From Candidatus Dormiibacterota bacterium (GTDB lineage: Bacteria > Chloroflexota > Dormibacteria > Aeolococcales > Aeolococcaceae), in NCBI GenBank assembly GCA_003153125.1, contig PLWW01000083.1, forward strand, positions 1 through 42,754: 42,754 nt of DNA. Reading direction: 5' to 3'. Below, piece after piece: positions 5,472 to 31,850 of the stretch (positions are counted from its first letter, which is position 1; the number at the start of each line of letters is the position of its first letter). A model generated the notes under the pieces. The model was not told where the DNA came from and made no database searches. It saw only the letters and a program-made list of their open reading frames with translations. A program made the position numbers and the translations under genes.

Positions 5472-5654
5472 GTGCGGTTGATGAGGGCTGTCGCAGCAGG
5501 CGTACGAGGCGGCTTCACTTCCACCGAGGTCGCGCTTCAATGGAGGAGCGGGAGAAGGGGGCCTCCCGCGGGAGTACCACCGCCTCAGCTGGGACTACTT
5601 TCTGTTATCGCTTCGCGTCGGCGGCCTGAGCTGGCGAATCAGAGCGGAACGAGC

Positions 5655-11761: not shown

Positions 11762-11832
11762 GGTCAAGTGACCCGAATCACCCGGGACGTTGGTCAGGTT
11801 CTCGAGTCAAGTGTCCGAGCCAGCGAGGCGAC

Positions 11833-11913
11833 CGGGACACGAGGCTCGAACTCGCGAGCGTACTTTGGCAAGGTAATGCCTTAAGTCTGATTCGGGAGGG
11901 GTCGAAAATGACC
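11833..11913 (-). pseudogene. tRNA-Gly(GCC)-like repeat, copy A
   Basis: The complementary strand reads ACCTTGCCAAAGT, an anticodon arm with TTGCCAA loop (GCC, Gly). This is followed by GCGAGTTCGAGCCTCGT, a T-arm, and GTCCCGG, an acceptor 3' side. The D-arm and 5' acceptor are degraded (CCGAATCAGACTTAAGGC instead of a proper D-arm). It is therefore a non-functional tRNA copy. The similarity to copy B extends on the 5' side to TTTTCGA..CC. Confidence 0.6.
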
Positions 11914-12006
11914 TCTAAACCATGACAGTCTCCCCGCTGGGACGAGCGTTTGGCGGCGCTGCCGCGGCATATGAGTCATCGCGGAGCGGAGGCCACAGCG
12001 TGATGC

Positions 12007-12555
12007 CTACGCCGCCGTGGGTGACCCGCGGCGGCGTGCGACCTTCGTCATGCTCGGAGGGACGAGCTTCATCACCAGATGGGTGACGCCGTGGGCTGGT
12101 GTGGCTCGCTGAACCGTGACAACCTCTCTCGAGTGGTAGAAGACGCCGAGCATGGCCAGGTTGTCCGATTGGGTGTCGGCGACGAAGAAGCGAATGCCCT
12201 GGTTCCATGCGATCGGCGCCAGCATCGCCAGCAGCCGGCTGCCGAGACCGCGTCTCTGGTAGCGATCGTCGACGACAAACGCAACCTCTGCGGTGTCGCC
12301 GCCGGGGGCACGAATGTACCGACCAACCGCAACGATTTGTGGCTCGACGGTGGCGATTATCGCCGCCCGAGTGTTGGGGTCGAGTTCGCTGAAATAGCGC
12401 GCTTCCTTATCGGAGAGCAGGGGGTGAGGGGAAAAGTATCGACGCCGGACCGTCTCCGCCGAGAGGCGCCGGTGAAACGCCTGCAGGCTAGGTGCATCCG
12501 AGGGTAAGATCGGCCGCATGATCGGGAGGTTCAGGCTGTGGGATTGCTCCGGCAT
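12007..12555 (-). CDS. GNAT-family N-acetyltransferase
   Basis: A 182-residue GNAT domain protein. It opens with the family stretch MRPILPSDAPSLQAFHRRLS, also known from the acetyltransferase half of Pat/acyl-CoA-synthetase fusion enzymes. The acetyl-CoA-binding motif A is seen as VAFVVDDRYQRRGLGSRLL around residues 90-108. Substrate, either a protein lysine or a small molecule, is unknown. The start ATG has AAGAGG close upstream. It is the only intact gene between two tRNA-Gly-like repeats, and a tandem heptamer lies 50 bp upstream of its start. Confidence 0.8.
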   Translation of the reverse strand: MPEQSHSLNLPIMRPILPSDAPSLQAFHRRLSAETVRRRYFSPHPLLSDKEARYFSELDPNTRAAIIATVEPQIVAVGRYIRAPGGDTAEVAFVVDDRYQRRGLGSRLLAMLAPIAWNQGIRFFVADTQSDNLAMLGVFYHSREVVTVQRATPAHGVTHLVMKLVPPSMTKVARRRGSPTAA

Positions 12556-12604
12556 GTCGTCCTCTTGGTTAGCGCCCCGGGAATCGATCGACGTGGGGCC
12601 TGGA

Positions 12605-12632
12605 GGGCTGAGGGCTGAGGGCTGAGGGCTGA
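12605..12632 (+). repeat. Tandem heptamer repeat, four copies of GGGCTGA
   Basis: GGGCTGA occurs four times head to tail without error, 50 bp upstream of the GNAT start codon and so in its probable promoter or leader. Short perfect repeats like this can change copy number by slippage. Confidence 0.85.
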
Positions 12633-12810
12633 GGCGCTAAGTATACCAAGCAGACGGATGGCGGAGTATGCGCGAGCCGGGTTCTAGAGAATCGCTCGGC
12701 CGGAGGGTTAGCAGAGCGAACGGTTGTGGTGCGGTCTTCCTGGTGTCATTCGCGACACAGGGGAGGCTCCCACGCGAGGCTAGACGGTTCGGCAGGTGAC
12801 TCTGAGCTGG

Positions 12811-12959
12811 TCAGAGTTCTCGGGGCACGACGAAGTCGATGAGCTTGGCGTACCCGCGGGCGAGGTCGCGCCAGCTCGCGATGGGACTGCGCAGGACGGC
12901 GAGCGCTGAGGTCGGAAACCCCTCCCGGAGGCGCTCGAGCCGGGGCGCCGTGCGCTGTC
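12811..12959 (-). pseudogene. C-terminal remnant of an unidentified protein
   Basis: Between a TGA at 12960-12962 and the TGA at 12811-12813 one minus frame gives about 48 residues of natural-looking protein (LERLREGFPTSALAVLRSP, then ASWRDLARGYAKLIDFVVP). It has no start codon. The other frames here are low-complexity Arg/Pro/Ala. It looks like the tail of a deleted gene. The family is not recognised. Confidence 0.35.
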
Positions 12960-13071
12960 CTCACCATGCGCGTGCTAAGCCTCGCTCCCTGCTGGTGCCC
13001 TCCATCCCCGGTCTTCCGCGGTGGATTCCGGTCCACCGCGGCTGGTCTGGCGACGCTTCTACGTCAAAGTG

Positions 13072-13157
13072 ACGGGAGACGAGGCTCGAACTCGCGACCC
13101 GTACCTTGGCAAGGTAGTGCCTTAGATCTGTATTCGGGAGGTCTCGAAAAATGGCCT
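13072..13157 (-). pseudogene. tRNA-Gly(GCC)-like repeat, copy B
   Basis: The complementary strand holds CTACCTTGCCAAGGTAC (anticodon arm, GCC), the variable region GGGTC, the T-arm GCGAGTTCGAGCCTCGT and CTCCCGT, an acceptor 3' strand. The 5' acceptor and D-arm are shortened and altered (CCCGAATACAGATCTAAGGC). It lies in the same orientation as copy A, about 1.24 kb away, and shares the same D-arm damage. The two therefore derive from one already defective copy or from one mobile repeat. Confidence 0.6.
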
Positions 13158-13252
13158 CGCGGCGAATACTCCCTAACCCTGCATCCATTGCGCGAAGCTG
13201 CGCTGATACCGCGCCGAGCATGGGCGGCACCACCCGACGACGTCACAGCCCA

Positions 13253-31773: not shown

Positions 31774-31850
31774 CGGGGAGTAGCTCAGGTGGTTAGAGTA
31801 CTGGTCTGGGGGACCAGGGGTCGCAGGTTCGAGTCCTGTCTCCCCGACCA
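31774..31850 (+). tRNA. tRNA-Pro(GGG)
   Basis: A complete cloverleaf: acceptor CGGGGAG with CTCCCCG, D-arm GCTCAGGTGGTTAGAGT, anticodon arm CTGGT-CTGGGGG-ACCAG (anticodon GGG), T-arm GCAGGTTCGAGTCCTGT, discriminator A and encoded CCA. The C1-G72 start is typical of tRNA-Pro. It is the only intact tRNA in the window and lies downstream of der. Confidence 0.97.

Follow-up and report, generated by a model that had tools for sequence, protein, structure and literature searches.

Paired tRNA-Gly half repeats in a Dormibacteria genome are probably scars of integrative elements that target tRNA-Gly genes

Two short direct repeats in a genome of Candidatus Dormiibacterota are most probably attachment-site scars of integrative elements that target tRNA-Gly genes. 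We put the probability of this reading at about 0.85, both for the two copies and for the wider repeat family to which they belong, which would consist of decayed scars of tyrosine-integrase elements inserting into tRNA-Gly genes. The evidence comes from the anatomy and orientation of the copies, two insertion polymorphisms in relatives, the adjacency of an integrase and the pattern of conservation. The window, the whole stretch of DNA analysed here, comprises positions 1-42754 (42,754 nucleotides) of contig C39 in a 3.0 Mb draft genome of 130 contigs (G000). The roughly 1.24 kb segment between its repeats, which carries a GNAT gene, is most plausibly a unit that has decayed, has no integrase and lies stranded at a distance from any tRNA-Gly.

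Results

Anatomy of the window repeats

The direct repeats are found at 11830-11916 (copy 1) and 13073-13170 (copy 2), spaced by 1243 bp. Both are tRNA-like on the minus strand and they are 86% identical over 86 bp. Against the native tRNA-Gly(GCC), copy 2 aligns over positions 23-70 (46/48 identical) and copy 1 over positions 23-73 (about 88% identical). Neither looks like a functional tRNA, because ARAGORN called no tRNA at either repeat in the window and Rfam returned zero matches for both copies at E<=1. Judged by alignment, each copy comprises the tRNA-Gly(GCC) sequence from the anticodon arm onward (this 3' half, which reaches the tRNA 3' end, is here termed t), fused to a conserved non-tRNA sequence (termed U). 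The features of the locus are as follows.

11830-11885, minus strand: t of copy 1, tRNA-Gly(GCC) 3' half, about positions 23-73 (88% identity)
11886-11893, minus strand: arm motif of copy 1, decayed to GAATCAGA (from the sequence)
11886-11920, minus strand: U remnant joined to copy 1 (alignment with other copies)
11830-13072, minus strand: putative decayed mobile unit between the t copies, about 1.24 kb, ending in U-t (presumed to be a single unit)
12007-12555, minus strand: GNAT acetyltransferase gene, 182 aa, cargo (Pfam PF00583)
12804-12956, minus strand: histidine-phosphatase (His_Phos_1) gene, 3' remnant (similarity to the complete gene on C87)
13073-13120, minus strand: t of copy 2, tRNA-Gly(GCC) 3' half, tRNA positions 23-70 (46/48 identity)
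13121-13170, minus strand: U remnant joined to copy 2 (alignment with other copies)
13127-13135, minus strand: putative arm motif GAATACAGA in the U of copy 2 (presumed arm-site role)

The original prediction described a direct-repeat pair of decayed whole tRNA-Gly(GCC) genes. The pair is real, but each member is a 3' half plus U, and what had been taken for a shared damaged D-arm and 5' acceptor is U itself, common to about ten other copies in the same genome. The GNAT gene predicted between the copies was confirmed by Pfam, and the predicted gene remnant derives from a histidine-phosphatase gene, of which it keeps the 3' end. The complete version of that gene (C87:5130-5684) likewise lies just downstream of a U-t copy.

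The similarity between the window copies stops at U-t, and their flanks differ. The proposed small mobile segment survives in that a partial tRNA marks its ends, but not as a duplicated segment. Alternatively, a decayed tRNA could have been copied by plain segmental duplication, without any mobile element at the window site. This would explain why both copies have U and t in common and why both are decayed; we consider it very improbable given where the similarity ends and given that the identical U-t joint recurs at many other sites with unrelated flanks.

A family of repeats built from U, t and D

Repeat counts given here come from searches and selected stretches rather than from entire genomes. 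Used as a query against the own genome, copy 2 hit 17 places, one of them being copy 2 itself. Another is an intact tRNA-Gly(GCC) (C40:7803-7877), a few are weak, and one, on C26, is a tRNA-Gly(TCC) fragment. The own genome has about a dozen of the further copies that had been proposed for a search. When aligned in the same direction, most of them have U and t, and some also have a third part, D. U is about 150 bp long and contains direct repeats resembling TGTGRTCAGCGTGGA, followed by GTGGAAATTGGGGGTAAGTAG...GAATACAGAATNAGA. In the aligned copies t spans tRNA positions 27-75 with a core of 46-49 nt, and D, about 230 bp long, starts near TGAATACGGAATGGCCC and contains the palindrome TCTAGGAATTCCTAGA. 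The repeat family is present throughout this genome and its relatives, and the suggestion that an already partial tRNA had been propagated holds up. In DNA chosen for holding copies, places with only the 3' half number 67 and places with only the 5' half number 2; these numbers, like the strand counts below, describe arrays rather than a random sample.

In a comparison of five U-t-D copies drawn from three congeneric genomes, t shows 100% identity, against means of 76% for U and 80% for D. The tRNA-Gly of G002 has its own variant T-arm, with pairing kept as judged by eye, and the same variant occurs in three partial copies of that genome. Together, these patterns fit an exchange of 3' halves between the elements and the working tRNA-Gly.

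In 471 kb of DNA from the own genome and its congeners there are 34 occurrences of the motif GAATAC[AG][AG]A, where we estimate about 5 from base composition. By our count, 31 of the 34 lie in U or D beside t at a constant spacing: the motif precedes t by about 19 nt, or follows the tRNA end, usually by 12 nt. Many copies derived from tRNA-Gly(TCC) have a similar motif ahead of t. We infer that it is a putative arm-type integrase site.

Several loci depart from the common layout. At G000:C14 8005-8194, U runs directly into two pieces of D, the first inverted and the second forward, and t is missing; by this arrangement the locus is a rearranged remnant. At G021:C153 13836-13872, a 5' half of tRNA-Gly (positions 1-37) stands by itself. 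An intact copy with a separate upstream region is found about 2.7 kb away, as though the tRNA had been split by an element that brought a whole one. The intact tRNA-Pro(GGG) of the window (31774-31850, plus strand) was rejected as a control for partial copies, since it has 3'-half copies itself, on C19, C51 (three, on one strand), C58 and C32. It extends the pattern instead, and tRNA-Pro may be a further anchor.

Arrays behind tRNA genes and the adjacent integrase

In the congener G001, D follows directly behind an intact tRNA-Gly. On C40 of the own genome, tRNA-Gly is succeeded within about 160 bp by a D-like stretch and a gene for a tyrosine integrase (347 aa, PF00589). G000, G001 and G002 are collinear upstream of tRNA-Gly, and downstream the collinearity stops within the D-like stretch. 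The integrase was assigned at the level of the general PF00589 family match, and profile comparison matched it to tyrosine recombinases of solved structure, among them XerA and a transposon Int protein. The C40 element runs off its contig at the far end, and a U end for it is presumed.

Scanning for the C40 integrase returned five loci, every one titled Candidatus Dormiibacterota, of which two appear to be relatives G004 and G005. An intact tRNA-Gly with anticodon GCC or CCC lies just upstream of the integrase at 6/6 loci (the five plus the own genome). Overall, a tyrosine integrase adjoins a tRNA on C40, G003:C194 and G017:C11 and at the five named MAG loci. In plasmid and phage collections, matches of about 45-57 nt were confined to the tRNA part and no relative of the integrase was found; in viral contigs, U-t had no exact match and the integrases found were all distant ones.

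U-t or U-t-D copies lie further along from the intact tRNA-Gly, on the strand of their neighbours. All 41 of 41 neighbouring pairs from the same isoacceptor share a strand, and the three opposite-strand pairs are all between different isoacceptors. Same-strand intervals have a median of 2.9 kb and a minimum of 0.73 kb. An intact tRNA with a displaced 3' fragment in the same orientation is seen, for example, on G017:C11, G008:C1 and G031:C203; the window contig holds fragments only. A further anchor is tRNA-Gly(TCC), with runs of 43-47 nt copies starting from position 30/31, many of them 100% identical (G031:C149, G019:C4, G029:C112 and G029:C160).

Cargo, as had been proposed, is found between same-strand pairs in the genome. 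The units are mostly 0.7-6 kb in size and hold one or few ordinary genes, often a single one, and most have no integrase match (PF00589). Examples are a LuxR-type regulator (C52), VKOR with DUF929 (C58), an aldehyde dehydrogenase alone, a GNAT protein alone, a mycothiol-S-transferase, and Fic and PIN proteins. A heliorhodopsin gene is the cargo of one interval in a tRNA-Gly(TCC) array (G031:C149 8910-9860).

One contig of the own genome, C85, ends about 5 bp past an intact tRNA-Gly(TCC) (5494-5569), which suggests that the assembly broke at the repeated 3' half. The repeats described here may explain contig breaks of this kind.

Insertion polymorphisms in a related genus

Two comparisons, both within one related genus other than that of the window, capture sites with and without inserted units. 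In G023 the tRNA is followed by flank Y, and in G031 by 4.1 kb, t and then Y. At the second site, the tRNA of G019 and G031 is followed by flank X, and that of G029 by about 0.7 kb, t, another stretch of about 0.7 kb, a partial t and then X. Both comparisons place the junctions at the 3' end of the tRNA and show a duplicated t, which is direct evidence for site-specific insertion and stacking at this position in the related genus.

These insertions bear on two other explanations. In the first, the copies would be a MITE- or SINE-like tRNA-derived dispersed repeat that transposes by itself and carries half a tRNA by chance. Several copies in the own genome, including those of the window, do lie on different contigs far from tRNA-Gly. 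However, the inserted units of the relatives sit exactly behind the tRNA 3' end, D follows directly behind an intact tRNA, neighbouring copies share one strand, and t is conserved far better than U and D, so we give a self-transposing repeat little credence. The free tRNA-derived repeat family of the original prediction most probably gives way to a site-specific attachment core, the tRNA 3' half, left by integration at tRNA-Gly.

In the second, U and D would be the ends of an IS21-family insertion sequence with a captured part of a tRNA. U presumably has some likeness to IS21 ends, and istB genes are present in these genomes, some of them near U or D fragments (C94, G002:C54 and G002:C25). No istB match was found near most U-t-D copies, however, and the units at the polymorphic tRNA sites carry genes other than istB, which makes an IS21 origin highly unlikely.

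Proposed mechanism

With site-specific integration at tRNA-Gly as the preferred reading, a circular molecule with the arrangement U-t-D would recombine with the chromosomal tRNA-Gly, its t serving as the site of exchange and the crossover falling in or near the anticodon arm. Recombination would restore an intact tRNA with the D end behind it, and the displaced 3' half would end up behind U at the far side. Repeated insertion could then build tandem arrays of the form tRNA-D...U-t-D...U-t, in which every interval is a small unit. Because most units have no integrase of their own, they are presumably mobilised by an integrase encoded elsewhere. In the window, two old U-t scars would flank the GNAT unit. 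We infer the circular intermediate, the crossover position, mobilisation in trans and the route by which the window copies ended up at a distance from tRNA-Gly.

A bolder and rather doubtful extension is that Dormibacteria have an integron-like system, in which one tRNA-adjacent tyrosine integrase moves tiny integrase-free cassettes (0.7-5 kb, with shared U and D) in trans. The cassettes would exchange the 3' half of the working tRNA-Gly, and its T-arms would evolve through them.

History of the window locus

The window copies are more diverged than most array copies, and neither a D end nor a PF00589 integrase was found in the window unit. Searches found no intact tRNA-Gly on the window contig (124 kb), and placed the intact copies on C40 and C85. 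An empty version of the site was not found by synteny, only an ABC-transporter pair being kept, in two relatives of another genus. The GNAT interval was probably once a single mobile unit. We hold this less firmly than the scar reading, because no empty version was found and the possible histories of the copies look alike. They may be what is left of an old array relocated by rearrangement; they may also stem from insertion at a secondary site or mark the far end of a large array. Draft assemblies can misjoin at repeats.

Read as scars, the pseudo-tRNA pair becomes a legible record of how genes were captured in an uncultured soil lineage, in which the 3' half of the host tRNA-Gly appears to be exchanged with mobile elements. 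U, t, D and GAATACRGA provide short search marks for single-gene cassettes in fragmented genomes.

Comparison with known systems

Dehalococcoides belongs to the same broad phylum (Chloroflexota) as this bacterium. Its tandem ssrA islands are the nearest precedent, being repeat-bounded, with 15/31 lacking integration modules, and inserted at tmRNA by a serine recombinase (PMC3146451). As in Dormibacteria, tandem units bounded by the 3' ends of a tRNA-like gene all lie downstream of that gene (PMC3146451). The ssrA islands differ in their tmRNA target, 20 bp repeat, serine recombinase and longer, rdhA-rich units (PMC3146451), whereas the Dormibacteria units have tRNA-Gly, a 46-49 nt core, a tyrosine integrase and often a single gene.

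Islander recognises a tRNA island by the tRNA and its displaced fragment, and its list includes no more than 4 tandems of three or more (PMC4383910). The arrays described here share the intact tRNA, the displaced 3' fragment in the same orientation and the tyrosine integrase beside the tRNA, but Islander demands an integrase per island (PMC4383910), and most units here have none. CIMEs, defined as decayed ICEs or IMEs, occur in accretion; each unit is bordered by attachment sites and has no recombination genes (PMC7563491). Most units here similarly keep attachment sites without a PF00589 match, that of the window carrying GNAT only. Unlike in the CIME definition, the conserved ends U and D point to repeated mobility and not just to decay.

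In the additive flexible genomic island fGI-2 of Methylophilaceae, tRNA-Lys 3' ends recur with variable cargo; the repeat is 20 bp of tRNA-Lys, and the portion of the account used here does not describe element ends or an integrase (PMC10872708). Tycheposons, as outlined in the same account, are 4-200 kb long with a XerD-type recombinase, and have in common with the units here a tRNA at one border, a tyrosine recombinase and cargo genes (PMC10872708). Set against that outline of 4-200 kb and an own tyrosine recombinase, the intervals here have a median of 2.9 kb and are mostly integrase-free. Compared with integron gene cassettes, the recombination core here is a tRNA half. The kind of element is known from tandem tRNA and ssrA islands and from CIMEs; what is unusual is the tiny, mostly integrase-free units of 0.7-5 kb with conserved ends.
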